Origin: Bradyrhizobium guangzhouense
GTDB taxonomy: Bacteria; Pseudomonadota; Alphaproteobacteria; Rhizobiales; Xanthobacteraceae
Length of the DNA: 64,000 bases
NCBI RefSeq assembly: GCF_004114955.1
Contig: NZ_CP030053.1
Location: 4,464,001 to 4,528,000 of the forward strand
Direction: 5' to 3'
Part shown: positions 46,960 to 64,000 of the stretch, piece after piece
How the letters are laid out: each line of letters opens with the position of its first letter
Numbering within the stretch: the first letter of the stretch is position 1
Program-made: the position numbers and the translations under genes
The notes under the pieces: model-generated
What the model saw: only the letters and a program-made list of their open reading frames with translations
What the model was told of the DNA's origin: nothing
Database searches by the model: none

Positions 46960-47514
46960 ATGATCCGCCTCCTGCTCGTTCTCATCTTGTTGGCCGGCAC
47001 AGCGGGCGCCGTGGTCGCCTATGGCGATCCCGACCAGATCGCACGCGCGAGCCACAAGGTCTCCTACATGTTCCGTGGGCAAGCCGCCTCGCCCGCGCCC
47101 GAAGTGCAAATCCAGCGGGGCCAGGGCGGCGAATTTGCGCTGCGCGCCAAAATCAACGGCGTGGCAACGCCAATGGTGATCGACACTGGTGCCACCTCCG
47201 TGGTGTTGACCTGGGAGACCGCAAAGGCGATCGGCCTGCCACTCGAGATGCTCGAATACGACGTCGACCTCGAAACCGCCGGCGGCCACACCAAGGCGGC
47301 CAGGCTGACACTCGATCGCCTCGCCGTCGGCCACCTCGTCGAGAAATCCGTGCCGGCGCTCGTCGTGCAGCGCGGGCAGATGAAGACCAATTTGCTCGGC
47401 ATGAGCTTTCTCGATCGCCTGGAGAGCTGGGGCGTGCGCGCGGACAAGCTCATGCTGACCGGCTATCCGGAGCTGCAGGGCAGCCATCGCCGCGCGCGCA
47501 CGGCGGTGGATTGA
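46960..47514 (+). CDS. membrane-anchored retropepsin-like aspartic protease (TIGR02281 type)
   Basis: A 184-residue protein with an N-terminal membrane anchor (MIRLLLVLILLAGTAGAVVA) and a periplasmic domain in the retropepsin fold. The active-site motif VIDTGATSVVLTWETAKAIG carries the catalytic Asp. The pairing strand is LLGMSFLDRLESWG. Such single-domain proteases work as dimers; substrates in alphaproteobacteria are mostly unknown. ATG 46960 gives a proper signal anchor, 28 nt after the DUF1289 gene. Confidence 0.85.
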   Translation: MIRLLLVLILLAGTAGAVVAYGDPDQIARASHKVSYMFRGQAASPAPEVQIQRGQGGEFALRAKINGVATPMVIDTGATSVVLTWETAKAIGLPLEMLEYDVDLETAGGHTKAARLTLDRLAVGHLVEKSVPALVVQRGQMKTNLLGMSFLDRLESWGVRADKLMLTGYPELQGSHRRARTAVD

Positions 47515-47518
47515 GAAC

Positions 47519-48514
47519 CTAGGCGGCCGCCTCTGCCGGCGCGTGAGCCGTGATGCGTGCGATCGCATCGCGCAGGACGTCGACGCCAGCCCCCGGCCTG
47601 ACACCTTGTTCGGCAAGATGGCGACGGAAGGCCCGCGCGCCGGGCACCGCGTGGAAGGCGCCGACGAAATGCCGCGTCATGGCGTGCAGCCGCGTACCGC
47701 GCGCAAGCTGCGCCTCGATATAGGGCATCATCGCCTCGAACACGTCCTGCATCGTCGCATGCGGCGCAGCTTCGCCGAAGATGTCGCTATCGACTGATAG
47801 CAGCCGCCACGGCTCCTGATAGGCGGCCCGGCCGAGCATCACGCCGTCAACATGCGCAAGATGGGCTTTCGCCGCCTCGATGCTCAGGACGCCACCGTTG
47901 ATGATGACAGGCACATCCGGCATCGCACGCTTGAGCCGATAGACACGATCATAATCGAGCGGCGGGATATCGCGGTTTTCCTTCGGCGACAGACCGTTCA
48001 GCCACGCTTTTCGCGCATGCACGATCAGCGCGTCACAACCCGCAGCCACGACGGCGCGCGCGAGCGTATCCAGCGCGACTTCGGGATCCTGGTCATCGAT
48101 GCCGATGCGGCATTTCACAGTAACCGGGACGGACACCGCGCGCTTCATCGCGCCGACACATCTCGCAACAAGCTCAGGCTCCGCCATCAGGCAGGCACCG
48201 AAGCGGCCATCCTTCACCCGATCGGAGGGGCAGCCGACATTGAGATTGATCTCGTCATAGCCGAACTGTTCGCCGATCCGCGCAGCCCTCGCGAGCTCGC
48301 CAGGATCCGACCCGCCAAGCTGAAGCGCCACGGGGTGCTCGCTCGCGTCAAAGCCGAGCAGCCGCTCACGATCGCCATGAATGATGGCACCCGTGGTCAG
48401 CATCTCCGTATAGAGTAGCGCCCGCTTCGTCAGGTGACGATGGAACACCCGGCAGTGCCGGTCCGTCCAATCCATCATGGGGGCCACAGAAAAGCGATAG
48501 TCTTGCGATTTCAA
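47519..48514 (-). CDS. dusA: tRNA-dihydrouridine synthase A, 5' end replaced by island insertion
   Basis: A 331-residue flavoenzyme reducing U20/U20a in tRNA. Motifs: FSVAPMMDWTDRHCRVFHR (FMN and catalytic environment), NVGCPSDRVKDGRFGACLM with catalytic Cys, VTVKCRIGIDDQ, LIVHARKAWLNGLSPKENR and VIINGGV. There is no ATG near the start: the frame is open upstream but without homology. A TTG at 48514 gives MKSQDYRFSVAPMMDW with a weak AAGG 7 nt upstream. The first 47 bp lie at the edge of an inserted genomic island; the ancestral 5' end with an ATG is found near 55281. It may therefore be translated less efficiently. Confidence 0.9.
   Translation of the reverse strand: MKSQDYRFSVAPMMDWTDRHCRVFHRHLTKRALLYTEMLTTGAIIHGDRERLLGFDASEHPVALQLGGSDPGELARAARIGEQFGYDEINLNVGCPSDRVKDGRFGACLMAEPELVARCVGAMKRAVSVPVTVKCRIGIDDQDPEVALDTLARAVVAAGCDALIVHARKAWLNGLSPKENRDIPPLDYDRVYRLKRAMPDVPVIINGGVLSIEAAKAHLAHVDGVMLGRAAYQEPWRLLSVDSDIFGEAAPHATMQDVFEAMMPYIEAQLARGTRLHAMTRHFVGAFHAVPGARAFRRHLAEQGVRPGAGVDVLRDAIARITAHAPAEAAA
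48468..48485. repeat. attachment site, dusA-proximal end
   Basis: CAATCCATCATGGGGGCC, inside the codons for APMMDW of dusA. It matches 55235-55252 at 17 of 18 positions. Confidence 0.8.
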
Positions 48515-48550
48515 ATATTTACCTTGTTTTTTCAATGGGATGAACCCGGA

Positions 48551-48586
48551 ACATGTGCACTTCAAACTATTCGAAATTGCACATGT
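48551..48586. repeat. inverted repeat near attachment site
   Basis: ACATGTGCA (48551-48559) and TGCACATGT (48578-48586), perfect 9-bp arms separated by 18 nt that itself holds TTCAAA...TTCGAA. It lies between the dusA start and the integrase gene, the place expected for integrase or excisionase binding. Confidence 0.55.
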
Positions 48587-48608
48587 TTGTACCTGTTTTG
48601 ACCTCTCA

Positions 48609-48645
48609 GTGCACACATAGCGCACACGAATTGGGGGGTGCACAC
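48609..48645. repeat. cluster of GTGCACAC-type octamers, left side
   Basis: GTGCACAC at 48609-48616, GCGCACAC at 48620-48627 and GTGCACAC at 48638-48645. The same octamer occurs at 55177-55184, 55188-55195 and 55426-55433 around the other end of the island. Possible arm-type sites for the integrase. Confidence 0.55.
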
Positions 48646-48649
48646 GGCC

Positions 48650-48991
48650 GTGGCCAGCTTTACTCAATTGCCTTCCGGGAACTGGCGCGTCCAGGTCCGC
48701 CGCAAGAACCGCTACGTGTCAGAGACCTTTCGCCGGCGCAAGGACGGCGAAGGCCGGGCGCTCGACATGGAGCGCAATATCGACCGCAGTGGATCGCCGA
48801 AGCCCCGCGCCGCGGTCCAAGCCAAAACCTTCGGCGACATCATCGATCTGCAGATCGAGGACATGCAGGAGGTCGGCCGCCCTCCCCGCCGCTCCAAGGC
48901 CGCAGTGTTAGAGGCACTAAAGGAAGCCTTGGGGACAGTAAAATTACCCAAGCTCAATCGCGAACGGCTTATTGAGCTGCTGCCGGTTTGA
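48650..48991 (+). pseudogene. tyrosine-type integrase, N-terminal fragment
   Basis: A fragment of about 114 codons from a GTG start: MASFTQLPSGNWRVQVRRK, then RYVSETFRRRKDGEGRALDM, KTFGDIIDLQIEDMQEV and KLNRERLIE. This is the arm-binding and core-binding N-terminal region of a dusA-associated integrase. The catalytic domain with its R-H-R-Y residues is gone: the frame ends at 48991, where IS3-type sequence begins. Non-functional. Confidence 0.8.
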
Positions 48992-49237
48992 TGGACACCG
49001 AGATTAGGTGTTTCATAAAGCCGGAGGTGGGCGATGAAGAGACGGAAGTTCAGTCGCGAGTTCGAGGTCGAGGCGGTCAAGCTGGTGGGGGAGCGCGGGG
49101 TATCGGTGGCGCAAGCCGGCCGGGACCTGGATGTTCATGAGAATGTTCTGCGCAAGTAGGTGAAGGAGCTCGGCTCCAACCCGGTACAGGCCTTTCCCGG
49201 TCATGGGCAGATGAAGCCCGAGCAGCGGGAGATCGAC
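48988..49237 (+). mobile_element. IS3-family element, 5' remnant
   Basis: It begins TGATGGACACCGAGATTAGG, the usual left end of this IS type, and contains the first part of orfA. It breaks off at about 49237 within codons for PEQREI, where a different sequence (an OxlT-like gene in the other direction) starts. orfB and the right end are missing. Confidence 0.7.
49034..49159 (+). pseudogene. IS3-family OrfA fragment with a nonsense codon
   Basis: MKRRKFSREFEVEAVKLVGE, then RGVSVAQAGRDLDVHENVLR is the HTH region of OrfA. A TAG stands where the family has Trp (LRKW-VKELG), after which the frame continues as VKELGSNPVQAFPGHGQMKP up to about 49237. Confidence 0.75.
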
Positions 49238-49239
49238 CA

Positions 49240-49380
49240 ATCCTTATGCGCCGCATTGATTGGGTGGACGAACAACGTCCAACCATATTGCAGATTGGCG
49301 ATCATGATCATGCAGATGATCCCCGCGATCAGTTGGGTCCATTTTTCCCGATTGAGCGATGAGCTTGCACCATGGGCCAT
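49240..49380 (-). pseudogene. MFS transporter 5' stub, oxalate/formate antiporter-like
   Basis: A minus-strand start with a good GGGGAG Shine-Dalgarno about 5 nt before ATG 49380 gives MAHGASSSLNREKWTQL, then IAGIICMIMIANLQYGWTLF and VHPINAAHKDW. This is the first membrane helix of OxlT-type (OFA family) transporters. It is cut after about 47 codons by the IS3 remnant. The rest of the gene is absent. Confidence 0.65.
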
Positions 49381-50037
49381 TTCTCTCTCCCCGAGCTTCT
49401 TCCCTCCCCCATTTTCGCTTTCCACGCTTTGCTGAGCGCGCGCTGCGCTTTGCGACGACGCGACGGAGCTTTGCGCAAGCTGAAACTCGGCCGTGCCGTT
49501 CCAGGTTCCTTCCTCACAAATACTACGATCGTCGGAGTTCGTGGGTCTGACGATCATCGCCATCGAAACGATGAGGCAGCGGCACTTCAACTTTCGTCGA
49601 TGTCTAGACGTCGAGCGACAAAGCGGAAGCCTCGTTCAAACAGATCCTTGCTTAAGTGTCGGCTCCTTCCAAGAAGAGAGCCTCGCGCGAGATTCGGCTG
49701 CCGGGCTTTGGGTTTGCCAAGACATTGAGCTACAGCTCATTGAGTGCGCCCTCGATGTTGCGCAGCAGCAGGATTATCGAAAGATCAGAGTCGAGCACGA
49801 AAGCGTGTTGGCCGGTTAGACCAATTGTGAATTTTTACCCTTCGGGAACCGATGCAGTCTGCCGTCGGGAAGCGATGACCGTTGCCGCGTGACGCGCGGC
49901 AAGCGCCCCCCAATTCAAAACAGCGATGTGAAATCGCCCGTGATCTCGGAGATGACTGATCTCCTACTCATCGCGGCAACCGGAATGATTTGCCCTATGA
50001 ACTAGCATCGTGAAACGAATGAACAGGGAGGTCTGGA
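49381..50037. other. non-coding or degenerate stretch inside the island
   Basis: About 650 bp between the MFS stub and the ABC operon. It must include the original promoter of the stub and that of the ABC operon. Several short frames exist on both strands, none with recognisable similarity. Around 49640-49830 the minus strand reads LDSDLSIILLLRNIEGALNE before a stop, possibly an old coding remnant. Confidence 0.4.
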
Positions 50038-51288
50038 ATGGCACGAATTCAACCTTCGATCAGTCGTCGTTCGCTCATCAAGTCTGGCGTTGTCCTTGCC
50101 GGAAGCCAGTTGATCAGCGCCCCCTTTATCGTGAGATCTCTCGCCGACGAGCCGGTGAAGATCGGTATGGTCAATCCCTTGACGGGTGTTCTCTCCGCGC
50201 TGGCTCAGAGCGAGGTCGACGGGGCCAAATACGCTGAGGCCGAGATCAACAAGAAGGGCGGCATCCTGGGTCGCCAGGTTCAGCTTCTTGTCGAGGATTC
50301 CGCGAACGATGTCGGGACCGGTGTGCAGAAGACCCGCAAGCTGATTGACCGTGACAATGTGGCGGTCATTCTCGGTGACGTCAATTCCGGCATTGCCTAT
50401 GCAATGTCCCAAGTCACCAACGAGAAGAAGATTTTCCATATCGTCCCTGGCGGCCACACCGATCCGATCACCGGCTCGAACTGCAAATGGAATGTCTTCC
50501 GGATCTGCAACACAACGACGATGGACGCCAACGCGGTCACACCGGAGCTGGTGAAGAAGTTCGGCAAGAAATGGTTCTTCATCACACCGGACTACGCCTA
50601 TGGCCACACGCTTCAAGACGCCTTCATCAAGGCGCTGAAAAAAGCCGGTGGGACTTACGAGGGAGACATGCTCCCGATTAACAATACGGATTTCTCGGCT
50701 ACTCTGATCAAGGCGAAGGCGTTCAAACCGAACGTTCTACTCAACAACATGGGCGGTCTTACGCAAATCAACTGCATGAAGCAATTCACGCAATTTGGCA
50801 TGCAGAAGGAAATGGCGCTTGGCGGCGCGCTCTTCGAGCTCGAGAGCATCAAGGGCTGCCCGCCCGATGCGCAGGCTGGATGGTGGGCGATGGAATGGTG
50901 GTGGAATCAACCGAACGTGCCGGAGGTCGTCAAGTTTGTGAGCGACTTCCGCGCCGCCACGAAGAGGACGCCCTCAGCGCGCGACTGGTTCGGCTACGTG
51001 GCGATGCATACCGTACGCTTGGCGTCAGAAAAGGCGAAGTCGTTGGATGGCCCCAAAATGGCGAAGGCTCTTGAGGATCTCGAGCTGCCGCCGGATGTCG
51101 CTCTCCAGCCGGGCAAGGTACGCTACAGGGCGGGAGACCATGAGCTGATGCCGAACATCTTCGTCGGCGAAGTTCATCCGGCAAAATCTTCTCCCGACGA
51201 CGTCTTCAATGCCGAGACGCTGGTGTCTGGCGAGCAGGCGGCAGGCTCGGTGGAAGATACAGGATGCAAGATGGTCGAGCCGGCCTGA
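50038..51288 (+). CDS. ABC transporter substrate-binding protein, Leu/Ile/Val (HAAT) type
   Basis: A 416-residue periplasmic protein with a twin-arginine-like signal (SISRRSLIKSGVVLAGSQL). The mature domain is of the LivJ/AmiC fold: PVKIGMVNPLTGVLSALAQS, AEAEINKKGGILGRQVQLLV, DNVAVILGDVNSGIAYAMSQ, KWFFITPDYAYGHTLQDAF and NTTTMDANAVTPE. Substrates of this family include amino acids, amides, urea and aromatic acids; it cannot be decided here. GGGAGG precedes ATG 50038 by about 7 nt. It is the first gene of a five-gene cassette. Confidence 0.9.
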   Translation: MARIQPSISRRSLIKSGVVLAGSQLISAPFIVRSLADEPVKIGMVNPLTGVLSALAQSEVDGAKYAEAEINKKGGILGRQVQLLVEDSANDVGTGVQKTRKLIDRDNVAVILGDVNSGIAYAMSQVTNEKKIFHIVPGGHTDPITGSNCKWNVFRICNTTTMDANAVTPELVKKFGKKWFFITPDYAYGHTLQDAFIKALKKAGGTYEGDMLPINNTDFSATLIKAKAFKPNVLLNNMGGLTQINCMKQFTQFGMQKEMALGGALFELESIKGCPPDAQAGWWAMEWWWNQPNVPEVVKFVSDFRAATKRTPSARDWFGYVAMHTVRLASEKAKSLDGPKMAKALEDLELPPDVALQPGKVRYRAGDHELMPNIFVGEVHPAKSSPDDVFNAETLVSGEQAAGSVEDTGCKMVEPA

Positions 51289-51324
51289 TCAACAAGCGGA
51301 GAAGACATCAGGGCGGAGGACGCG

Positions 51325-52194
51325 ATGATCCAGGTCATATTTTTCAACGTCACTAATGGACTGATCATTGGCGCGTTCTACGTGTTGATGGCCCTCGGCT
51401 TGTCGCTGATCCTCAATCTCAGCAACGTCATCAATTTCTCCCACGGCAATTTCCTGGCGCTCGGCGGCTATCTCGCTTTCACGTTGTCGCCGGCGCTGGG
51501 TTATTGGGGCGCGTTGCTGGTCGCGCCGCTCATCACAGCGCTTATCGGCCTTGCCGTCGAGCGGCTGATGATCCGCCGCGTTTACAACCGAGACCCCGTT
51601 TACAGCCTGTTGCTCACGTTCGGTTTTGCCTTCGTCATGCAGGACATGGCTCGCTATATTTGGGGACCCAATGGCTTGCCGCTGGGATTGCCGGAATTCC
51701 TGGCCCAGCCGATCAGCTCAAACCTGTTCTTCATCACTTGGTACCGCGTCTTCATGGTCGCGGTGGTGATCATCGCGGTGCTCGGGCTGTTCGCGTTCCT
51801 CCGCTACACAAAAGTCGGCGTCCGCATTCGGGCCGGCACGCTCGATCTTGAAACGGTGGCCTCCCTTGGCGTCAACATCAGCCTCCTGCGAACATTCAAT
51901 TTCGCGCTCGGCTGCATGCTCGCCGGCCTTAGCGGAGTACTCGCCGCGGGGCAGATCGGGCTCAATCCAAATATGGGTGATGACCTGCTGATGCCGAGCT
52001 TCATTGCAATCATTGTTGGTGGCGTCGGCAGCCTGATCGGCACGCTGTTTGGGGGGCTGCTCATCGGCCTCGCGGCGGCACTGACGACCGTCGTCTTTCC
52101 CGCCGCGAGCGAGGCGGTCATTTACGCAATTATGATGGTCGTGCTTCTGGTTCGTCCACGGGGCCTGATGGGCGAAGAAGGGATGATGTCATGA
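51325..52194 (+). CDS. ABC transporter permease, LivH type
   Basis: A 289-residue inner-membrane permease with about eight helices. Landmarks: NGLIIGAFYVLMALGLSLIL, SNVINFSHGNFLALGGYLAF, VGVRIRAGTLDLETVASLG, and IIVGGVGSLIGTLFGGLLIGL. GGAGGACGCG precedes the ATG. The stop overlaps the LivM start by 4 nt. Confidence 0.92.
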   Translation: MIQVIFFNVTNGLIIGAFYVLMALGLSLILNLSNVINFSHGNFLALGGYLAFTLSPALGYWGALLVAPLITALIGLAVERLMIRRVYNRDPVYSLLLTFGFAFVMQDMARYIWGPNGLPLGLPEFLAQPISSNLFFITWYRVFMVAVVIIAVLGLFAFLRYTKVGVRIRAGTLDLETVASLGVNISLLRTFNFALGCMLAGLSGVLAAGQIGLNPNMGDDLLMPSFIAIIVGGVGSLIGTLFGGLLIGLAAALTTVVFPAASEAVIYAIMMVVLLVRPRGLMGEEGMMS

Positions 52195-53195
52195 GCACGG
52201 ACGTTAGCCCAGGTTTGCCCACAGCCGCTGTCGCAACGAGCCGTACTCCGCCGTTCCCCCGCTGGATGTTGCTCGTCCTTGTCTGGGCACTTCTGATTGC
52301 AGCCCCGTACTGGCTGCCTCTGGTCGGCGGCTACACTGCACTTGCCGGAAAGGTTCTGGTTTTCGGCCTGGCTGCAATGGGCCTGAATCTCTTGTTGGGA
52401 TTTACGGGCGTGCTGAGTTTCGGGCACGCGGCCTATTTCGGGCTCGGCGCGTATGGCGCGGGTCTCACATTGCGGTACCTCGCGCACAGCACGCCGCTCG
52501 CCATGCTTTTAGGGACGTTGCTTGGAGGGCTGGCAGGCACGCTGTTCGGACTCTTGATCGTACGTCGCCGCGGCGTTTACTTTGCGATGTGTACCATCGC
52601 ATTCGGACAGCTCTGGTACTATCTCGCCTATAGCTGGAACGACTTCACCGGCGGCTTTGATGGCTTGCGCGATTTCCACCGCGAGCAGATTGGATTGGGT
52701 CCCTTCAGCCTGGACATCGCCGAGGGCGGCAACAAATTTTACTTCTTCGTGCTCGCTGTGTTTGCGATCACGGTGGGATTGCTAGGTATGCTGGTTCGCT
52801 CGCCGTTTGGTCACACCTTGCGGGCGATCCGGGAGAATGAGCGTCGTGCTCGCTTCTTGGCCATTCCTGTCGAACGACAGATCTGGCTGTCTTTCTCGAT
52901 CTCGTGCTTTGTGACGGCGCTTGCCGGCACGCTCTATGCTCTTTTGAACAACTTCGCCGATCCACTGGCGTTGCACTATTCGCTCTCGGGCTATTTTGTC
53001 GTGATGTGCGTGATGGGCGGGATGCGGACGTTCTGGGGCCCGTTGGTTGGCGCGACGGTATTCGTTGTGCTGCAGGACTATATCTCCTCCATGACCGTTA
53101 ATTGGATGTCCTTTGTGGGTGCGATTTTCGTGCTGGTCGTGCTTTTCTTCCCGCGCGGCCTGCTTGGCATGCGGCGCCAGCGCAGTTCGGGGTGA
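52191..53195 (+). CDS. ABC transporter permease, LivM type
   Basis: A 334-residue inner-membrane permease with about ten helices: GLAAMGLNLLLGFTGVLSFG, HAAYFGLGAYGAGLTLRYL, and the EAA-like cytoplasmic loop SPFGHTLRAIRENERRARFL. It has a hydrophobic C-terminus ending RGLLGMRRQRSSG. Coupled to LivH (overlap) and separated by 2 nt from the LivG start. Confidence 0.92.
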   Translation: MSTDVSPGLPTAAVATSRTPPFPRWMLLVLVWALLIAAPYWLPLVGGYTALAGKVLVFGLAAMGLNLLLGFTGVLSFGHAAYFGLGAYGAGLTLRYLAHSTPLAMLLGTLLGGLAGTLFGLLIVRRRGVYFAMCTIAFGQLWYYLAYSWNDFTGGFDGLRDFHREQIGLGPFSLDIAEGGNKFYFFVLAVFAITVGLLGMLVRSPFGHTLRAIRENERRARFLAIPVERQIWLSFSISCFVTALAGTLYALLNNFADPLALHYSLSGYFVVMCVMGGMRTFWGPLVGATVFVVLQDYISSMTVNWMSFVGAIFVLVVLFFPRGLLGMRRQRSSG

Positions 53196-53197
53196 AC

Positions 53198-53941
53198 ATG
53201 CTCGAGGTTCGCAACGTTTCCAAACGGTTCGGCAGCCTGGTTGCCGTGAAGGACGTGTCGATGATGGTCGAACGTGGCGAGCTGCGCGCCATCATCGGTC
53301 CGAATGGAGCGGGAAAGACGACCTTCTTCAACATGATCAGCGGCTATTTCCCGCCCAGCAGGGGATCAATCCTGTTCAATGGCAAAGACGTGACCGCTGT
53401 CCCGCCACACGCGCGGGTTGGTCTCGGCATGGGGCGTACTTTCCAGATCACCGAGGTTTTTCCCGAATTGACCGTCCATGAGAACGTCCTGACTGCGGCG
53501 GAGGTCGCGGCGGGGCAGACCTTGCGGATGCTGCCCAACAAGGCCGATGCCAAGATTGCCAACGATGTAGCGATCGAGATGCTTGCGGTCGTGGGAATGA
53601 GCGCCAAGGCGGACCGGCTGGTCGGGGAGCTCTCGCACGGCGATCAGAGGACGATCGAGATTGCAATGACGCTGGCGCAATTGCCGCGCCTCCTGCTGCT
53701 CGATGAGCCGACCGCGGGAATGGGCGATCAGGAAACGTACGAAATCACCACACTGATCCGCCGCCTGCATCGAGAGCGAAACTACACGATCGTCCTGATC
53801 GAGCATGATATGCGCGTGGTCTTTCACCTCGCCGACCGCATCACGGTTCTCGACCAGGGCACCCTGCTCGCAGAAGGGACGCCACAGGAGATCGCCGCTT
53901 CCGAAGCGGTGCAAGCGGCCTATCTGGGGGAGACCCAATGA
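53198..53941 (+). CDS. ABC transporter ATP-binding protein, LivG type
   Basis: A 247-residue ATPase: Walker A GPNGAGKTT, signature LSHGDQR (a common LivG variant of LSGGQ), Walker B LLLLDEPTAGM, and H-loop IEHDM. The LivG-specific end EGTPQEIAASEAVQAAYLGE is present. ATG 53198 begins the ABC domain directly; the stop overlaps the LivF start by 4 nt. Confidence 0.93.
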   Translation: MLEVRNVSKRFGSLVAVKDVSMMVERGELRAIIGPNGAGKTTFFNMISGYFPPSRGSILFNGKDVTAVPPHARVGLGMGRTFQITEVFPELTVHENVLTAAEVAAGQTLRMLPNKADAKIANDVAIEMLAVVGMSAKADRLVGELSHGDQRTIEIAMTLAQLPRLLLLDEPTAGMGDQETYEITTLIRRLHRERNYTIVLIEHDMRVVFHLADRITVLDQGTLLAEGTPQEIAASEAVQAAYLGETQ

Positions 53942-54657
53942 ACCCACTCAGCGTGAGGGGATTGCAGACCTTCTACGGCAAGAGCCACATCCTGCATAAC
54001 GTCGGCCTGGAGGTCCATGAAGGCGAGATCGTCGTCCTGCTCGGCCGGAATGGCGCGGGCAAGACGACAACGCTCCGTAGCATCATAGGGCTGACCCCGC
54101 CCCGAGAGGGCAATGTTAGCCTATTCGGAGTCGATGCCACACGGATGTCACCCTATCAGGTTGCGGCGCTCGGTGTGGGCTATGTTCCCGAAGGACGCAA
54201 GATCTTCGCCAACCTGACCGTTGAGGACAATTTGCGAGTCCCGGTCACGCGCCCGGGTCCGTGGACCATCGATCGCGTCTTTCAGACCTTTCCGCGGCTT
54301 GCCGAACGCCGGGGAAATCGCGGTCGGCAACTGTCGGGCGGCGAGCAGGAGATGCTTTCGATCGCGCGTGCGCTGCTCCTCAATCCAAAACTGCTGCTGC
54401 TGGACGAGCCAAGCCAAGGCCTTGCCCCATTGATCGTAAAGGAGGTGTTTCAGATCATACAGACCATGCGGCAAGAGGGCATTTCAGTCCTGCTGGTCGA
54501 GCAGAATGTGAGGATCGGTCTAACCGTTGCTGACCGCGCCTATGTGCTGGATGACGGCGCCATCATCTATAGCGGCAGCGCTTCCGAGCTCGCCAATGAC
54601 GAGGAACGCGTCCGTTCCATGGCGGGCGCGAGCGCAAACGAGTGGGCGATGAGCTAG
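53938..54657 (+). CDS. ABC transporter ATP-binding protein, LivF type
   Basis: A 239-residue ATPase: Walker A GRNGAGKTTTLRSIIG, GVGYVPEGRKIFANLTVEDN, signature LSGGEQEMLSIARALL, Walker B LLLLDEPSQGLAP and VEQNVRIG. It closes the five-gene transporter cassette. No enzyme gene follows, so the nature of the substrate is not revealed by neighbours. Confidence 0.93.
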   Translation: MNPLSVRGLQTFYGKSHILHNVGLEVHEGEIVVLLGRNGAGKTTTLRSIIGLTPPREGNVSLFGVDATRMSPYQVAALGVGYVPEGRKIFANLTVEDNLRVPVTRPGPWTIDRVFQTFPRLAERRGNRGRQLSGGEQEMLSIARALLLNPKLLLLDEPSQGLAPLIVKEVFQIIQTMRQEGISVLLVEQNVRIGLTVADRAYVLDDGAIIYSGSASELANDEERVRSMAGASANEWAMS

Positions 54658-55176
54658 CTCGGCAGAGCGAGACGCCCGCGAGCGGCAGGCGCTGTCGCTG
54701 AGCTTTATCGAGGCGACAATCTCGGCAAACTACTCCTCCACCTTGAGCCGCTATGAGCCCCATTGATGTCCCGTTGCCCATTAGCCAAGCAGGCCCCCAC
54801 CTCACGTCCCTCGCAGCAGCCTTGTGTGCTGGATTCCCGCTGGGCAGCTTGGCAGAAAACTTGACCCGCCCCATGCAGTTTCGCGTGCCGCCACAAGGGC
54901 TACCATCTTGGGTGCAGGATCGTGAAAAATTGTACTCTGGCGTACAAATTCGATTCTGCTGTTAGCGGGGGAGCGACCCGCCCCCCGACATCAACCTTCT
55001 TCATCGTTGAGCTAAACAGCAGACCTACGCGATCGACGAAATGAAGGCCGATCCGACCTCCGCGCGACAAAAACGGGATCGGCTTCTCGGTCGCAGTGGT
55101 TCGATCGCGTTGTCCGCATCACGGCTCGTGACCGCCTGCTCAGACTTGCCGTCGATAGATTTTTCTGGATCTCCCG

Positions 55177-55195
55177 GTGCACACGTCGTGCACAC
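55177..55195. repeat. tandem GTGCACAC octamers, right side
   Basis: GTGCACAC at 55177-55184 and 55188-55195, 40-58 bp inside the distal attachment site. They repeat the octamers near the integrase start (48609-48645). Confidence 0.55.
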
Positions 55196-55234
55196 GAGAC
55201 CCTCTAAGCGATTGAATAAATTGAACTGTCGCTT

Positions 55235-55252
55235 CAATCCATCATGGGAGCC
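55235..55252. repeat. attachment site, distal end
   Basis: CAATCCATCATGGGAGCC. On the minus strand the sequence next to it reads MNSLDRRFSTAPMMD and then a stop, matching the DusA N-terminus RFSVAPMMDW; this is the displaced original start of dusA. Confidence 0.8.
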
Positions 55253-55281
55253 GTGGAAAATCTGCGATCTAAGCTATTCAT
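55235..55281 (-). pseudogene. displaced original 5' end of dusA
   Basis: From ATG 55281 the minus strand reads MNSLDRRFSTAPMMD, then a stop created at the junction. It matches the DusA start (RFSVAPMMDW) encoded at 48470-48500. It marks where the dusA coding sequence began before the island inserted. Confidence 0.7.
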
Positions 55282-55516
55282 TTTGCTGGGATATTTTGAC
55301 TTCGGTCGACCCTTTAGGTGATTGGACCGATTGAGAAATCTGGTTTGAGCAAGCTTCCGCGGCTTGGCACTTCTAGGACCATATATGCATGAATTGGAAG
55401 CGGAAATCGCTACTTCGGATTCTCTGTGCACACGTCGCCTGCGCGGGAGCGAGAGTGCGCACGTCACTCATATGACGTGGGTCAGAGATCCTTGAGAGCG
55501 ACGGGCGGGCTTCGGT

Positions 55517-55542: not shown

Positions 55543-55652
55543 CTTCGCATGTTCATGCTGCGCCCATACAATCGCGGACCATTTACTCTCGGCAATATCA
55601 GGATTTCTGACCCTTTTGGCGGCTGGCACGCAAATGCTAATGAGACACCGTC

Positions 55653-55970
55653 ATGCGACGAATGAATACGAAGGAGCTCGAAAGGCAGGCAAAGGGGGTG
55701 GCCACCCTGATGCGCATGTTCGCCAATGAGCATCGGCTGCTCATCGTCTGCAAGCTGGTCGAATATGGCGAGGCCAGTGCCGGTACGCTTGCCGAGGATG
55801 TCGGACTATCCGCCTCGGCGCTGTCACAGCACTTGACCAAGCTGAAGGCGGAGGGCGTCGTCGCCGTTCGACGCGACAGTCAAACCATGTGGTACCGCAT
55901 CGCCGACCGGCGGGTCGAAGAGCTGTTCGCGACCTTGCACCGGCTGTTCTGCGGCCCGCGCAAGCGCTGA
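55653..55970 (+). CDS. ArsR-family repressor of the BigR/SqrR (persulfide-sensing) pattern
   Basis: A 105-residue winged-helix repressor. FANEHRLLIVCKLVEYGEAS and LSASALSQHLTKLKAEGVVA give the HTH; YRIADRRVEELFATLHRLFCG closes the dimer helix. It has only two Cys, at about residues 33 and 100, the positions and spacing of the reactive pair in SqrR and BigR, which form a tetrasulfide with persulfides and release DNA. The metal-binding ELCVCDL motif of ArsR proper is missing. It converges with three YeeE/YedE-type sulfur-transport genes, which fits a role in sulfide or sulfane sulfur sensing. Confidence 0.85.
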   Translation: MRRMNTKELERQAKGVATLMRMFANEHRLLIVCKLVEYGEASAGTLAEDVGLSASALSQHLTKLKAEGVVAVRRDSQTMWYRIADRRVEELFATLHRLFCGPRKR

Positions 55971-55986
55971 GCTTTCGACGCGCAGC

Positions 55987-56538
55987 CTAGCTGCGCTTCT
56001 GCTTCGCTTCCGCCGATTCAATCCACCAGAAGAATAGCGCGGCACCGACGGCAAGGGCCGCGAACCAGGCGATGTCCGGGATGTGCGTGACATCCGGAAG
56101 GCGGACCTTGCCCAGCGCCCAGACGTTGAGGACATGCGCCTTCAACCAGTCGAAGCTCAGCGCGTAGAGGATGGCGCCGGCGACCATGCCGAGTGCGCCG
56201 ACAAGCGCGTGCACGCTGCCGGTGGCGATCGCGCCGAGCGCCGTGCCCGGACAATAGCCGTAGACCACCATGCCGATGCCGAACAGCGCGGCGCCGAGCG
56301 CGACCGCCAGCATGTTGGCGTCCTTCACGTAGTACTTCGTGTTGCCGGTATCGACGAGCAGCAGCACGCCGAGCCCGCCGACCACGATCGCCGTGCCCAT
56401 CACCTTGAGCACGGTGAAGTCGCGCAGTCGAAACTGGTTCTCGATCACGTTGCAGTTCGTCACCTTGCCACGTTGCAGCAGGAAGCCGAAGGCTGCTCCC
56501 ATCCCGAGCGGCCCGAGGATTGTCATCATCGCAGTCAT
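55987..56538 (-). CDS. YeeE/YedE-family membrane protein, PmpB-like half
   Basis: A 183-residue membrane protein with about four to five helices. Motifs KVTNCNVIENQFRLRDFTVL and VVYGYCPGTALGAIATGSV carry the conserved Cys of the YeeE/YedE (TsuA/PmpB) fold, which transports thiosulfate or other sulfur compounds. It is half-sized and pairs with the gene 12 nt upstream. The operon converges with the ArsR-type gene, 16 nt between stops. Confidence 0.85.
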   Translation of the reverse strand: MTAMMTILGPLGMGAAFGFLLQRGKVTNCNVIENQFRLRDFTVLKVMGTAIVVGGLGVLLLVDTGNTKYYVKDANMLAVALGAALFGIGMVVYGYCPGTALGAIATGSVHALVGALGMVAGAILYALSFDWLKAHVLNVWALGKVRLPDVTHIPDIAWFAALAVGAALFFWWIESAEAKQKRS

Positions 56539-56550
56539 CTCGATTCTCCT

Positions 56551-57102
56551 TTACGGCTTGCGGAACAGGAGCGCGGAAATGCCGAGCCCGGTGCCGAACA
56601 TCACCGCCAGGAACAACCAGCTCGACACCGCGAGTTGCAGACCGCCGGAGATGCCGTGTCCGCTGGTGCAGCCGCCGGCAAGCCGCGCGCCGTACATGAT
56701 GACGATACCGCCAAGAAACGCGCCGACGAAGCGCTTGGCGATCGACGGTCCGAACCGCTCCTTCCAGACCTCAGGCACGAGCTCGAGCCGCCACGTGCCC
56801 GACATCACCGCCGCGATGAACGCACCTGCGGGAATGCCGACGAGAAACCAGACGCCGTAGTCCCATTTCAGCGGCATGCTCTTCCAGTAGGAATTCTGCG
56901 CCACCGCCTCCGGCCCGATCACAGGAACGGCGAACAGCGAGGCGACGCGCGAATAGGCGGTGGTGACGCCGAGCGGGTCACCGAACACTGCAAAGGCGAT
57001 CCAGCTCAAGAGCCCGATCCCCGCGCCGACGAGATAAGGCGACCAGTCGATCCGCGCGGTGCGCGGCGCTGGCCGAACATAGCTTTCCGTGATGGTGGTC
57101 AT
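56551..57102 (-). CDS. YeeE/YedE-family membrane protein, PmpA-like half
   Basis: A 183-residue membrane protein with four helices; RLAGGCTSGHGISGGLQLAV is the conserved Cys motif of the YeeE/YedE fold. It starts at ATG 57102 with GGGGAG 8 nt upstream. Together with the following PmpB-like half it would build one transporter. The 83 nt upstream contain an AT-rich palindrome (57167-57182). Confidence 0.85.
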   Translation of the reverse strand: MTTITESYVRPAPRTARIDWSPYLVGAGIGLLSWIAFAVFGDPLGVTTAYSRVASLFAVPVIGPEAVAQNSYWKSMPLKWDYGVWFLVGIPAGAFIAAVMSGTWRLELVPEVWKERFGPSIAKRFVGAFLGGIVIMYGARLAGGCTSGHGISGGLQLAVSSWLFLAVMFGTGLGISALLFRKP

Positions 57103-57166
57103 GTGTGTCTCCCCGACAGCGGCTCGACCGGTCCGCATCGGGGAAAATCATATTCAAGAAACATAA

Positions 57167-57182
57167 TTTAGCAAAGCCTAAA
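57167..57182. promoter_or_regulatory. AT-rich inverted repeat upstream of the PmpA-like gene
   Basis: TTTAG (57167-57171) and CTAAA (57178-57182) around CAAAGC, in the gap between two YeeE/YedE genes. It could be the binding site of the ArsR-type repressor or another regulator, but it differs from the palindrome at 55517. Confidence 0.35.
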
Positions 57183-57185
57183 GTA

Positions 57186-58271
57186 TTAGGCGCGCGGAGA
57201 ACCGACCGCTTGCTGCGGTTGCGACAGGCCGGCCCGATCGACCAGCAGATCGGTGAGCCCCGCCCCCAGCCACATGCCGCCGAGCACGAGCCAGGCGGTG
57301 AGCGCGAATACGGAGGCTCCGGTCACACCGGCGCCGACCGCACAACCGCCGGCGAGCATCGCGCCGAATCCCATCAGCACCGCGCCGAGCGGGTAGCGGC
57401 GCATGCCGAGCCCGTCCGAAAACCCCTCGAGCTTGAGTTCATGGGCACCGGCCGCGGCGACGAACGAGCCCAGGAACACGCCGGGGATGATGCCGAGGTC
57501 GAAGCCGAGCCGGAGCTGCGGGCTGTTCAGGAACAGCATCAGCAACTCGGCCGATGGTCCGCTGAAGGTGAGGCTTTTCAGCGTCACCGGCGCGAACGAG
57601 GCCTGCGAGAGCTGGTAGGTGAAGAGCCATCCGGCGACGACGGCCACGCCCGTGGCCAGCGCTGCAAGGATCAGGCGCCGCGGCAGATGGCTGCGAAGCG
57701 CGAAGGCGAGCCCCGCGATCAGCCACAATCCGCCGAAGGCGAGCTTCTCGGGCGTCCCGCCGCCGAATACCGCCATGATGTCGCGCGAAGGGCCACCGTC
57801 GACCAGCCACAGATTGGTCACCCATTCGCGCGCGGGCGACAGCAGGCCGCGATAGGAGGCCTGCGCGGTGACCGCAAACACCAGGCCCGACAGCAGCGCC
57901 CTGAGATTGCCGTTGGCGGAGAGCACGAGCAGCCGGCTGGCGCAGCCGCGGGCGAGGATCATGCCGCAGCCGAACATGACGCCGCCGACCAGCGCGCCGG
58001 AGATGCTGCCCTGCTGCGCGAGCTGGCGCGCCTCGGACACGTCGAGGAAGCGGAGCGCGACCAGCGCCTGGGTGCCGACCAGCGCCGCCGCAAAGGTCAG
58101 GAGCCACACCGCAAGGCGCGGGCCGCCCTCGCCGCGGGAGAATTCGACCGCCGCGGCGCGCAGGCAGAATCGGCTGCGCTGGGCGAAGAAGCCGAAGAGG
58201 CCACCGACCAGAAGGCCGCCCAGCCATGACAGCCGGTCTTCCCCGAAGAGGTCGATGAGTGTCGTCAGCAC
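57186..58271 (-). CDS. full-length YeeE/YedE (TsuA-like) sulfur transporter
   Basis: A 361-residue, roughly 9-10 helix membrane protein. Its three Cys-bearing segments are RSRFCLRAA (N-terminal), GGVMFGCGMILARGCASRLL (middle) and GAMLAGGCAVGAGVTGAS (C-terminal). In the structure of the Spirochaeta TsuA such Cys residues relay thiosulfate across the membrane. This gene is 81 nt downstream of the first DsrE-like gene of the sox operon, so it may belong to the same transcript. Confidence 0.88.
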   Translation of the reverse strand: MLTTLIDLFGEDRLSWLGGLLVGGLFGFFAQRSRFCLRAAAVEFSRGEGGPRLAVWLLTFAAALVGTQALVALRFLDVSEARQLAQQGSISGALVGGVMFGCGMILARGCASRLLVLSANGNLRALLSGLVFAVTAQASYRGLLSPAREWVTNLWLVDGGPSRDIMAVFGGGTPEKLAFGGLWLIAGLAFALRSHLPRRLILAALATGVAVVAGWLFTYQLSQASFAPVTLKSLTFSGPSAELLMLFLNSPQLRLGFDLGIIPGVFLGSFVAAAGAHELKLEGFSDGLGMRRYPLGAVLMGFGAMLAGGCAVGAGVTGASVFALTAWLVLGGMWLGAGLTDLLVDRAGLSQPQQAVGSPRA

Positions 58272-58352
58272 GGCCGTCTCGGTTCCCTTGAGATCCGCTA
58301 ACCTACCGCTCGTTACGGCCGCGCCATATGAGCCAAATCAAGGCTCGCGCGC

Positions 58353-58796
58353 TCACGGGCGCAGATAGGCATATCCCTGCTGTTGCAGCTCGGCGAGCCG
58401 CACCACGCCGCCCTTCTCGGCCACCACGAAGCCGGGCGTGAGGTCGTCCAGCTTGACGCCCTGCGCCTTCATGGTGTTGGCACAGGCGTCGAACCCGACG
58501 CCTGCGTCGGCAAGCTTCTTCATCATCTCGATGGTGTGATCATCGGCGGCGAGCGCATGGAAGGCGCGGAGTGCCGGTCCATGCACGACCAGCCTGATAT
58601 CGGCCTTGCCGGGCCCGCCGACGCCATCGACATGGTTCTGGATGTTGCCGAGCACAAAGACGACGCGGTCGGCGTCGGCGAGGTGATAGACGACGCGCTG
58701 CCGCGCCGGCGCTTCCGTCGCAGCACTCGCCTCGCGTACGGCAAGAGCGCCGAACAGTCCGGCAAGGCTCGCGCGAAGCATGGATCGACGCTGCAT
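58353..58796 (-). CDS. exported DsrE-like protein 1
   Basis: A 147-residue protein with a twin-arginine-like signal (MQRRSMLRASLAGLFGALAV) and a DsrE/TusD-like domain: VVYHLADADRVVFVLGNIQN, ADIRLVVHGPALRAF, and the conserved Cys in GVGFDACANTMKAQGV. DsrE-type proteins carry sulfane sulfur on this Cys; most are cytoplasmic, whereas this is exported. Eight nt separate it from the hydrolase gene. ATG 58796 follows AGGAGG by a few nt. Confidence 0.82.
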   Translation of the reverse strand: MQRRSMLRASLAGLFGALAVREASAATEAPARQRVVYHLADADRVVFVLGNIQNHVDGVGGPGKADIRLVVHGPALRAFHALAADDHTIEMMKKLADAGVGFDACANTMKAQGVKLDDLTPGFVVAEKGGVVRLAELQQQGYAYLRP

Positions 58797-58804
58797 GGTC
58801 CCTC

Positions 58805-59710
58805 CTATCGGGTCTGCTTGATGAACTCGGCGATGCGGTCGGCGACATCTTCCGCGAACAGGTCGCGGAAGAAATGATCGGCATCCTCGATCTTGTCGAG
58901 CTGCACCCGGCCGCCGCTCGAATCGGCAAGCGGTGCGAAGGACGCTACCACATCGGGCACGACCGTATCCTTGGTTGCGGCGAGCACCAGGACGGGCAGC
59001 TTCATGCGCGCCACCAGCGCCGCAGTGTCCTGCGCAGCATCGGCGACATAGAAGGACGCAAAGGCGCGCGCCGTCACCACGGCGTTGCGGCAATAGATGA
59101 AGCCGGGCACGTCCATCCACTCTCCGCCGCGTCCCGCTGCGACGGCCTTCGTCGCCTGCTCCAGGAACGGCTCGAGCGGCTTGCCATACGTCTGGGCGTA
59201 GGAGGCGCGCAAATCGGCCTCGGCCTTTGCGGTCGCCGGCGCCAGCAGCACCGCACCCGCTACCGGCGACGTCTCGTTCGCCGCCAGATAGCGCGCAACC
59301 TGGTTGCCGCCGCGCGAATGACCGAACGCGAAGACCTGCCGCGACATGGCCTTCGCCTTCTCGACCCAGGCGCCGATCTCGGCAACAGCGTCCCCTGCGG
59401 TATGGTCGTGCCGGACAGCGCAGTCATACATGCCCTTGCGGCGATCGATCCCCAGCGACAGCGTATGGGCGAGCGAAGCGATGCCGCGCTGCTCGAGCGC
59501 CTTGGCTACGCCCTGAATGACCTCCATGTCCTTGTGCGCAAGGGTGCCGTGGGTCATCACGACGAGCGGCGTGTCCGGCCCCATCGCGGCTGGCGTGCGC
59601 AGCGTCGCGAGCGTCGTGCGGCCGTAGACCGACAGTTCCAGCTCCTGCTCGGCCGCGCCAGCAGGCCGGGCGAGAAGGAGCAAGACCGCCAATCCCATCA
59701 ACCATCGCAT
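58805..59710 (-). CDS. exported alpha/beta hydrolase in the sox operon
   Basis: A 301-residue protein with a signal peptide (MRWLMGLAVLLLLARPAGA). The hydrolase fold shows LVVMTHGTLAHKD (oxyanion region), the nucleophile Ser in VFAFGHSRGGNQVA, the acid Asp in LVLAATKDTVVPDVV, and the His in EDADHFFRDL. The substrate is unknown. It lies between two exported DsrE-like genes with only 8-14 nt gaps, so it is part of the sox transcript. Confidence 0.82.
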   Translation of the reverse strand: MRWLMGLAVLLLLARPAGAAEQELELSVYGRTTLATLRTPAAMGPDTPLVVMTHGTLAHKDMEVIQGVAKALEQRGIASLAHTLSLGIDRRKGMYDCAVRHDHTAGDAVAEIGAWVEKAKAMSRQVFAFGHSRGGNQVARYLAANETSPVAGAVLLAPATAKAEADLRASYAQTYGKPLEPFLEQATKAVAAGRGGEWMDVPGFIYCRNAVVTARAFASFYVADAAQDTAALVARMKLPVLVLAATKDTVVPDVVASFAPLADSSGGRVQLDKIEDADHFFRDLFAEDVADRIAEFIKQTR

Positions 59711-59724
59711 CGGCGGCTCTCTCC

Positions 59725-60189
59725 CTATGGCCGGACGATCGTCCAGCTCTTTTCGGCAAGCTCCATCAGCATGGCAACCCCGACCTGGGTGACGCTGATG
59801 CCTTCGATCAGCGGCGGTCGTTTGCCTTCCTTCGCCGTGAGCGTTTCCAGCGTGTTGCCGCAGGCGACGAAGCTCACATTAGGCATCGATTTCAGGAAAT
59901 TCACCAGGCGCTCCTTCACTGGCGAGCGATCCTCGAGCAGCATGTCGAGGCCGCCATTGAAGGCGACAACCACGATCTCGACGTCCTCGCCTTGCCCTGA
60001 ATAATGCCGCGACACGTTGGCCGCAACATCGAGGACCGCGCGCATCTTGACCGGGTCATCGTCGCTGATCTGCAGCGCGAGCCTGTGCGACTCCGCCGCC
60101 CGGGACGGGGCCGCGAGACTTGTCACGATGAAGGCCGCTGCGAGCAGACCGCGAAGCATTCCACGGCGGCTCGCCCGGCCCCTTCTCAC
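59725..60189 (-). CDS. exported DsrE-like protein 2
   Basis: A 154-residue protein with a twin-arginine-like leader (ASRRGMLRGLLAAAFIVTSL) and a DsrE-type domain: LALQISDDDPVKMRAVLDVA, VEIVVVAFNGGLDML, the conserved Cys in VSFVACGNTLETL, and the ending MELAEKSWTIVRP. GTG 60189 is the start; it overlaps the SoxD stop by 4 nt (GTGA). Together with DsrE-like 1 it brackets an exported hydrolase. Confidence 0.82.
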   Translation of the reverse strand: MRRGRASRRGMLRGLLAAAFIVTSLAAPSRAAESHRLALQISDDDPVKMRAVLDVAANVSRHYSGQGEDVEIVVVAFNGGLDMLLEDRSPVKERLVNFLKSMPNVSFVACGNTLETLTAKEGKRPPLIEGISVTQVGVAMLMELAEKSWTIVRP

Positions 60190-60878
60190 TCCACGCCCCG
60201 CGGCTTTCCGTCCTTGCCGTCCTCAGGCGTCACATCGATGACCGCGGCGCGCCCGGTGATCTTCACCGGCGCGATGCAATCCTTCATGCAGGGGTCCTTC
60301 TGCCAGAACGACCTCTCGCTGGTGGCGCGATCGTCCATCACAAAACCCTGCTCGTTCGGCATCTTGAGCGTGGCGAGGTTCTTGTTGGTGAGCTCGAAGT
60401 TCTGGTCGGTGACGACGTCGTTCAGGTAGAGGACATAGGCGACCAGCGCATAATATTCGTCGACCGAGAACGACTCCGCATTGCCGTAGGGCATGGCGTG
60501 ACGGACATAATCGAACACGGTCGAGGCATAGGGCCAGTAGGAGCCGACCGTCTTGACCGGATTGTCTGACGTCAACGAGCCCTTGCCGCCCGCCAGCACC
60601 GGCCAGCGGCCGTTGCCCTCGCCGAACTCGCCATGGCAGGTCGAGCAATTGTCCATGAACAGCTTCTCGCCCTGCGCGACGGTGCCCTTGCCTTCCGGCA
60701 GGCCCTGGCCGTCGGGCCGCACGTCGATATCCCAGCCGCGGATCTCGTCCGCGGTCGGCGCACGACCGATGTGATAGCGCGGACCGCCCCTGGCGTCTGC
60801 CTTCTGTTGCGCGAGCGCCGGTGCGACCAGCGCGCAAGCGAGCAGCGCGGCTGCGATGAAATTAGGCGACTTCGACAT
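60186..60878 (-). CDS. soxD: SoxD-type cytochrome c subunit of sulfane dehydrogenase, monohaem
   Basis: A 230-residue periplasmic protein: signal peptide (FIAAALLACALVAPALAQ), DIDVRPDGQGLPEGKGTVAQ, one haem-binding NCSTCHGEFGEG, GSYWPYASTVFDYVRHAMPY, and a Cys pair in DPCMKDCIAPV. The sequence follows the N-terminal half of Paracoccus SoxD. The second haem domain of that protein is absent, giving a short form. The start lies inside soxC (17-nt overlap). Confidence 0.88.
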   Translation of the reverse strand: MSKSPNFIAAALLACALVAPALAQQKADARGGPRYHIGRAPTADEIRGWDIDVRPDGQGLPEGKGTVAQGEKLFMDNCSTCHGEFGEGNGRWPVLAGGKGSLTSDNPVKTVGSYWPYASTVFDYVRHAMPYGNAESFSVDEYYALVAYVLYLNDVVTDQNFELTNKNLATLKMPNEQGFVMDDRATSERSFWQKDPCMKDCIAPVKITGRAAVIDVTPEDGKDGKPRGVE

Positions 60879-62133
60879 TCTCGACCTCACCATTGGCCTG
60901 CACATGCCAGGTCTGGATGCCATTGTTGTGATAGATGGAGTTGACACCGCGAATCTTGCGCAGCTCGGCCTTGCTCGGCTGCACATAGCCGGTCTCGTCC
61001 TGGACGCGCGATTGCAGCAGCAGCGGCTCACCGTTCCAGTCGAACTCGTAGTAGAAGCGCGTCAGCGCCTTGTCGAGAACGGGACCATCCAGCCGCGCCG
61101 GCCACCAGTTGCGGCCACCGTCGAGCGATACGTCGACGCGCTTGACCTTGCCGTTGCCGCTCCAAGCGAGCCCGGAGACGATGGTGAAGCCCTTGCCGTG
61201 CTTGATCGGCGCCTGCGGGCTCGGACTCGTGATGACAGACTTGGCGTCCATCGACCAGGTGAAGCGGCGCGCCTTGCCGTTCGGCAGCAGGTCCGTGTAT
61301 TTCGACGTCTCCTCGCGAGTGTGCCAAGGCTGGTCGCCGACCTTGATGCGGCGCAGCCATTTGACCCAGAGATTGCCCTGCCAGCCCGGGACCACGAGCC
61401 GCATCGGATAGCCCTGCTCGGGATAGAGCGCCTCGCCGTTCATCTTGTAGGCGATGATGCAGTCATCGAGCGCCTTCTCGATCGGCAGGCTGCGATCCAT
61501 CGCCGCCGCATCGGCGCCTTCGACAAGCAGCCACTTGCCATTGGTTTTGACGCCGGCTTCCTCCAGCAGCGTGCGCAACGACACGCCGGTGTACTGCACG
61601 CAGTGGATCATGCCGTGGGTGAACTGGCAGCCATTGAGCTGCGCGCCGCGCCACTCCATGCCTGAATTCGCCGCGCACTCCATGAAGTGGATGCGGTTGA
61701 CGCGCGGATAGCGCTTCAGCTCGTCCAGCGTCAGGATCAGCGGCCGCTCCACCAGCCCGTGGATCATCAGGCGATGATCGGCCGGATCGATCTCGGCGAT
61801 GCCGCCATGATGCCGCTCGAAACAGAGGCCGTTCGGCGTGATGATGCCTTCGAGCTCGTGAAGCGGCGTGAAGCTGACCGAGGACTCGCGAGAGGCCGTC
61901 AGCCATTCGACATCGCGCCGGATGACCTCCTTCTCGAACTTCGACGGCTTGCCGTAGGGGCGCACGGCGACGCCCTCACCGAGCGACTTGCTCCATTCAG
62001 GCACGTTGGGCGGCTGGTTCGCGGGATTGCCGGCGCCCGCAAGAGCGGGCTTCGCGAGCACCGATGCCGCAACACCGGCGCCAGCGGCCAGGAAACTGCG
62101 TCGGGATTTCCGGGGACTGTCCATCTTCGACAT
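60862..62133 (-). CDS. soxC: SoxC sulfane dehydrogenase molybdenum subunit
   Basis: A 423-residue twin-arginine exported enzyme (KSRRSFLAAGAGVAASVLA) of the sulfite-oxidase family. The molybdenum-ligating Cys is in HFMECAANSGMEW. The pterin-binding residues are in PNGLCFERHHGG, and the dimerisation domain includes TIVSGLAWSGNGKVKRVDVS. With SoxD it oxidises the sulfane sulfur bound to SoxYZ. It follows soxB by 6 nt. It needs the molybdenum cofactor, for which moaA is encoded in the same window. Confidence 0.93.
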   Translation of the reverse strand: MSKMDSPRKSRRSFLAAGAGVAASVLAKPALAGAGNPANQPPNVPEWSKSLGEGVAVRPYGKPSKFEKEVIRRDVEWLTASRESSVSFTPLHELEGIITPNGLCFERHHGGIAEIDPADHRLMIHGLVERPLILTLDELKRYPRVNRIHFMECAANSGMEWRGAQLNGCQFTHGMIHCVQYTGVSLRTLLEEAGVKTNGKWLLVEGADAAAMDRSLPIEKALDDCIIAYKMNGEALYPEQGYPMRLVVPGWQGNLWVKWLRRIKVGDQPWHTREETSKYTDLLPNGKARRFTWSMDAKSVITSPSPQAPIKHGKGFTIVSGLAWSGNGKVKRVDVSLDGGRNWWPARLDGPVLDKALTRFYYEFDWNGEPLLLQSRVQDETGYVQPSKAELRKIRGVNSIYHNNGIQTWHVQANGEVENVEVA

Positions 62134-62139
62134 CGCTTC

Positions 62140-63831: not shown

Positions 63832-63858
63832 GCCCGATGCTCCTGCATGCTCATCGTT

Positions 63859-64000
63859 TCAATTGCGTACCGACGGCGTCTCGACCGGCAATCCGATGCC
63901 GCGCCAGGCGACATAGAGCTCAAGCGCAAGGAATTCGTCCGACAGCGGCTTGAACGGCTCGGCGCGCACGTCGAACATGCAGCCTTCGAAGCGCTCATGC
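63859..64000 (-). CDS. soxA: SoxA c-type cytochrome (partial, C-terminal end only)
   Basis: Only the last 46 codons lie in the window: RFEGCMFDVRAEPFKPLSDE, then FLALELYVAWRGIGLPVETP and VRN. The Cys in FEGCM is the haem-axial (cysteine persulfide) ligand of the SoxA C-terminal haem region. SoxAX joins thiosulfate to SoxYZ. The gene continues past 64000, where soxX, Y, Z are expected. Confidence 0.9.
   Translation of the reverse strand, partial: HERFEGCMFDVRAEPFKPLSDEFLALELYVAWRGIGLPVETPSVRN

Follow-up and report, generated by a model that had tools for sequence, protein, structure and literature searches.

The analysed window is a 64,000-nucleotide stretch of Bradyrhizobium guangzhouense (NCBI RefSeq assembly GCF_004114955.1, contig NZ_CP030053.1, positions 4,464,001 to 4,528,000 of the forward strand). 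The segment studied here, 48468-55252 in window coordinates, begins within dusA, a housekeeping tRNA-modification gene, and ends 6.8 kb further on at a second copy of a short dusA sequence. Between the two copies lie the beginning of a tyrosine integrase gene, remnants of an insertion sequence and of an antiporter gene, and a complete five-gene operon for an ATP-binding cassette (ABC) importer; a displaced dusA leader and the native right flank follow beyond the right copy (Table 1). We read this segment as a decayed dusA-specific genomic island, with a probability of about 0.9. An earlier note on this DNA had proposed such an island, and the proposal is supported by the unique repeats at its ends, by the type of integrase at its left end, by a right arm that recurs in other genomes and by the empty and occupied sites of relatives.

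Table 1. Features at the dusA locus, in window coordinates.
Feature	Position	Strand	Basis
dusA, tRNA-dihydrouridine(20/20a) synthase, 331 aa if the TTG at 48514 is the start	47519..48514	-	NF008774
attL core repeat	48468..48485	+	pattern searches of window and genome
Two GTGCACAC sites (48609, 48638) in the left arm, putative recombinase arm sites	48609..48645	+	motif search
N-terminal fragment of a dusA-associated type of tyrosine integrase, ~112 codons matching relatives	48638..48988	+	match to genome G141
Insertion-sequence remnant; transposase helix-turn-helix (HTH) frame 49034-49156, ending in an in-frame TAG	48973..49236	+	similarity to replicon C2, HTH_Tnp_1
5' remnant of an oxalate/formate antiporter gene	49234..49344	-	TIGR04259
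Substrate-binding protein of a Liv/Urt-like (HAAT) ABC importer	50038..51288	+	Peripla_BP_6, 1.1e-74
Permease 1 (BPD_transp_2)	51325..52194	+	profile searches
Permease 2 (BPD_transp_2)	52191..53195	+	profile searches
ATPase 1 (LivG/UrtD-like)	53195..53941	+	profile searches
ATPase 2 (LivF/UrtE-like)	53938..54657	+	profile searches
Right inner arm, with GTGCACAC at 55177 and 55188	55157..55234	+	similar sequence at other dusA-type right ends
attR core repeat	55235..55252	+	pattern searches of window and genome
Displaced previous dusA 5' end and leader, ATG at 55281, GTGCACAC at 55426	55253..55447	-	relatives have a homologue immediately upstream of dusA
Native right flank: ArsR-family regulator (55653-55970) and cluster	55628..64000		locus L078, 88.6% over 8364 bp

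The two 18-bp direct repeats that the earlier note had seen, CAATCCATCATGGGGGCC on the left and CAATCCATCATGGGAGCC on the right, are identical at 17 of 18 positions, and the copies extended to 33 bp show 79% identity. A pattern search of the window with one position open and up to two mismatches returned only these two sites, while 100 shuffled windows gave a mean of 0.05 sites and none contained two. The same pattern occurred in the whole genome (8,138,177 bases) at these two sites and at no further att site with up to two mismatches, and a reversed control pattern had no match. The left copy lies, as had been claimed, inside an intact dusA, at the codons for APMMDW; the dusA product scored 523.9 bits against NCBIfam NF008774, the cut-off being 269. 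On the minus strand at the right copy, the ATG at 55281 leads through MNSLDRRFSTAPMMD to a stop. These codons adjoin the right repeat, as the note had it; what it called the original dusA start is, more exactly, the previous leader, which may in turn stem from an older island. The repeats could in principle be chance or gene-conversion copies of the dusA start, with no island between them, and by a rough estimate one 18-bp pair with a single mismatch is not rare within 64 kb. This is contradicted by the location of the repeats at codons of dusA, by the integrase end, by the right arm that recurs elsewhere, by the uniqueness in the genome and by the relatives, and we give it practically no credence. 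A tRNA gene as integration target was ruled out, the window being without any tRNA.

The integrase fragment noticed just inside the left end proved to be 96% identical over 114 residues to the dusA-adjacent integrase of G141 (genomes are cited by number, G000 being this genome). The stretch 48486-48975 holds the start of the coding sequence and the catalytic domain is missing: the match to the G141 integrase (360 residues) breaks off at residue 114, where DNA shared with replicon C2 begins. By itself the fragment matched no Pfam or NCBIfam family, and phrog_22184 only; a full-length relative from G104 has a Phage_integrase domain at residues 178-343 (PF00589, 2.2e-21). The adjoining insertion-sequence remnant is 91% identical to replicon C2 in two parts, 48973-49175 to G000:C2:316975-317177 and 49167-49236 to G000:C2:325036-325105, and its transposase part matched HTH_Tnp_1 at 7.9e-10. 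No second copy of the integrase was found in the genome at E 1e-40, more distant integrases not having been searched for. The island therefore looks stranded, its own integrase being truncated and no other match being present at this threshold. The integrase is probably a dead remnant, the island can probably no longer move by itself, and its ability to excise is expected, from the sequence, to have been lost. Integrase-bearing relatives have a dusA leader of the same TTG type, and the dusA codons ahead of the repeat would come from the island, with TTG 48514 as start.

The integrase survey covered a genus sample of 195 genomes, this one included, 194 of which contained dusA; loci L006-L034 were taken from the 29 relatives with the best matches. 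With the G141 relative as query, 55 of the 195 genomes, again including this one, had an integrase match at E 1e-40 or better. Counted by hand relative to dusA, 49 of these 55 lie no more than 400 bp upstream of the gene, so the family of the fragment sits beside dusA in many relatives; three lie elsewhere (G044, G115, G193) and three are unplaced because dusA was absent from the listing (G152, G166, G175). The 49 comprise 34 matches that run from residue 1-4 to about residue 285 and 15 partial ones, and decayed integrases are thus common. The query is itself imperfect: its last 75 residues are covered by no other listed match, and the G104 integrase aligns with the G141 locus only up to residue 297 of 393. 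The G141 integrase is probably frameshifted, so that intactness is not proven for all of the 34 long matches. Identity to G141 is 96.1% in the integrase end (48486-48975), as against 84.2% for dusA and 87.7% for the left flank, which means that this end has passed between lineages.

Two loci of the survey may hold more than one island. In G066:C22:219363-251044 two dusA-type integrases lie about 30 kb apart upstream of a single dusA, suggesting tandem islands. In G191 (L062:12402-15861) a broken integrase beside dusA is accompanied by a pair of attR-like arms separated by 2.6 kb, which may represent two collapsed islands.

All five GTGCACAC sites of the window lie near the island ends (48609, 48638, 55177, 55188 and 55426). 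Their count alone is unexceptional, as shuffled windows had a mean of 2.24 and five or more in 7 of 100, and it is the placement that is exceptional. The right arm recurs in G034 (83%, 55157-55260), G117 (80%, 55157-55427) and G187 (74%, 55135-55329), in the last of which it adjoins the right-flank cluster about 253 kb from that genome's own dusA; weaker matches were obtained in G191 (two copies, 71-73%) and G150 (70%). TGCACAC was counted on either strand within 300 bp upstream of the dusA core at 40 dusA loci, this genome's included. It was present at 13 of the 15 loci with an adjacent integrase match, the two misses having a distant, 34-35% identical integrase, and at 8 of the 25 loci without such a match; random 300-bp stretches of the same loci contained it in 459 of 8000 cases.

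The right flank, whose cluster we take to include YeeE/YedE-like genes, was found in 36 of the 195 genomes at E 1e-60. Its distance from dusA varies widely: 0.15-0.2 kb separate dusA from the arsR flank in G180, and in G030 the homologues of window 44970-48496 and 57216-62514 lie about 1.2 kb apart with the left flank collinear, whereas the right end and right flank of the present genome recur about 11.5 kb from dusA in G034 and the interval reaches 18 kb in G036. These distances identify the site as a hotspot and the flanks as native neighbours. At six of the 29 loci fetched first (G036, G150, G171, G155, G088 and G187) dusA runs into a homologue of the displaced leader, 69-81% identical, and it does likewise in the later-fetched G233 and G083.

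Several observations weigh against the island. The earlier note had expected relatives without the insert to join the two flanks directly; dusA does lie close to the right flank in G180 and G030, but the exact junction of both flanks was not found in any single close relative. The 5 kb fetched from G180 contained no match to the left flank, and 55253-55447 is absent there as well; in G030 a gene of another kind lies between the flanks and 55253-57215 is absent. Several of the six apparent empty sites may themselves be island ends, an attR-like arm being present 11 kb upstream in G150. The displaced leader has a guanine plus cytosine (GC) content of 49%, unlike the flanks, and the divergence of the importer operon, presented below, roughly tracks that of the chromosome and does not suggest a recent import. 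The same note had set against an island the case of relatives with the importer operon next to dusA and no empty site among them; the operon does stand beside dusA in relatives, yet on its 3' side, and island-free sites exist.

The right-border stretches of G036, G118, G018, G029, G005 and G163 were searched for an attR-like sequence without success, and their dusA-to-cluster intervals are therefore not claimed as single islands. In G046 (G046:C1:2049761-2343120) a nifH-family match (2198864) lies between a dusA with an adjacent integrase fragment and the right-flank cluster, possibly a symbiosis region anchored at dusA; a dusA-bounded symbiosis island was rejected there, as the 15 kb examined contained no attR-like sequence. 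The best nifH-family match of the present genome is at G000:C2:519486-520298, on a 979 kb second replicon, and that of G036 is also on C2.

Taken together, the segment sits in the 5' end of dusA, is bounded by imperfect direct repeats and is absent from relatives (G180, G030 and others). We propose that a tyrosine recombinase of the dusA-associated type would have carried out recombination between the attP of a circular element and an attB located at the dusA codons for APMMDW. Through this insertion dusA would have acquired a different leader with a TTG start (MKSQDYRFS-), its former ATG start (MNSLDRRFS-) being shifted to the right end. The integrase was probably interrupted later by an insertion sequence, about 112 codons in and ahead of its catalytic domain, and the loss of other material would have left a 6.8 kb island fixed in place, with the Liv/Urt (HAAT) type importer as its sole complete cargo. 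A dead dusA island would then still set the start of a housekeeping tRNA-modification gene. The survey suggests, moreover, that dusA in Bradyrhizobium generally serves as a site of accretion.

The displaced leader may carry an additional layer of this history. When the 25 loci without an adjacent integrase match were sorted by eye, TGCACAC was present in 7 of 11 ATGAA-type leaders and in 1 of the 14 others, a grouping that was made post hoc and in which related genomes are not independent. The motif lies at positions 176-177 and 201-206 of the ATGAA-type leaders, and the site of the displaced leader is at position 176; G034 and G150 combine a leader of this type with an attR-like arm about 11 kb upstream. 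This suggests, rather than proves, that 55253-55447 belonged to an older island. A wider and more doubtful possibility, which we put forward tentatively, is that the dusA start has been rewritten repeatedly in Bradyrhizobium, each island replacing the leader and leaving the prior one with its arm sites at the right end, and that 55253-55447 is such a relic. If so, the order of the layers would be readable as an integration history.

The importer probably takes up an amino-acid- or amide-like solute. The signal of its binding protein is presumably twin-arginine-like, and the closest solved relative by sequence is 3i09 (2.5e-36). The binding protein fell far below the cut-offs of the UrtA and Liv models (UrtA, 113.6 against 492.75), and a firm assignment as UrtABCDE urea or branched-chain amino acid transporter was rejected, because all five proteins score under the UrtA-E and Liv cut-offs. 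Inspection by eye of the reading frames of 14 loci, together with profile scans of a few of these frames, revealed no clearly recurrent neighbour that would name a substrate; a malonyl-CoA decarboxylase gene adjoins the G055 copy. The antiporter remnant matched TIGR04259 at E 2.5e-12 and 46.4 bits (cut-off 335), over profile positions 1-36 of 405 only, and had no Pfam match. The GC content is 55-59% inside the island (59% in the operon) and 65% in both flanks.

A search of 265 genomes, with two candidates scored per genome, found a nearly complete operon in at least nine: this genome, G036 (90% identity), G191, G256, G076, G108 and G233 (81-82%), G055 (76%) and G227 (80-82%, with 70% in the last part, viewed only over 18 kb, where no dusA was noticed). 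Further genomes had copies of 67-69% identity. In G108, G191, G233 and G256 the operon stands 0.2-1.2 kb beyond the 3' end of dusA, and in G036 about 11 kb to its 3' side; operon and dusA are on different contigs in G076, G055 and G227. Near the location of the G036 operon, window 34586-35767 and 39673-40821 are related genes (75% DNA identity over 947 bp), the products of which we take to be TRAP-type solute-binding proteins.

Between G000 and G036 the operon identity is 0.910, compared with 0.911 (45084-46600), 0.943 (40957-42114) and 0.876 (dusA) for the chromosome. The corresponding values are 0.919 versus 0.928, 0.932 and 0.894 for G191-G256, and 0.822 versus 0.826, 0.814 and 0.806 for G000-G191, the two longer chromosomal stretches having been compared in five genomes of two clades only. 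Such rough parallels would be expected if the operon were an old Bradyrhizobium resident near dusA that was relocated into an already decayed island, and five of the eight other carriers indeed have it on the 3' side of dusA, while homology to G036 stops at 49523 and 54657, both inside the island. A resident of this kind would, however, have been lost very many times, as nine carriers were seen among 265 genomes and the near relatives G062, G264 and G210 have only short 70-77% matches to the ATPase part. The low GC content of the operon against the flanks does not fit either, nor does G055, which breaks the pattern with 0.763 for the operon and 0.856 for dusA, and we regard this origin as plausible at somewhat below even odds. 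The importer has about an even chance of being island cargo from another Bradyrhizobium. Its position between two att sites and its low GC content agree with this, and other dusA islands appear to hold metabolic genes, as genes of transport or metabolic type (MFS_1, Dak2) are situated close to dusA integrases or island ends in G141, whose right end was not located, and in G034; on the other hand, none of the eight other copies was seen between dusA att sites, and the divergence of the operon roughly parallels that of the chromosome. Cargo and island end may have different histories: the importer may have arrived with the island or have moved into it later, the island itself being established. 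A position between att sites is thus no proof of arrival with an island.

Compared with known systems, the importer resembles Liv/Urt (HAAT) importers in its Pfam domains and in the order of binding protein, two permeases and two ATPases, and differs from the assigned ones in the profile scores given above. The dusA-targeting integrative elements of Vibrio (PMC8409611), according to the parts of that report compared here, supply the dusA promoter and N-terminus, require rdfN for excision and can be mobilized by IncC plasmids; the present island shares with them the dusA target and the replaced leader. No rdfN-like gene was noticed among the island reading frames, for which no profile search was made. 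The sections of Farrugia et al. (2015; PMC4482086) that were compared describe dusA-specific islands inserted in the conserved 5' end of dusA, with an integrase adjoining the gene, imperfect direct repeats of 21 bp, variable cargo and a new dusA 5' end supplied by the island; Bradyrhizobium sp. BTAi1 is among the hosts, the smallest island measures 4758 bp and the average is 42.6 kb. The GTGCACAC sites and the layered leaders seen here are without mention in those sections. The island at 48468-55252 agrees with the described ones in its target, its imperfect repeats and the dusA 5' end that it supplies, and probably in the type of the adjoining integrase, and departs from them in its truncated integrase and in a length of 6.8 kb, far under the average. 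On the whole it belongs to a known class as an ordinary case, to which it adds a few instructive details.

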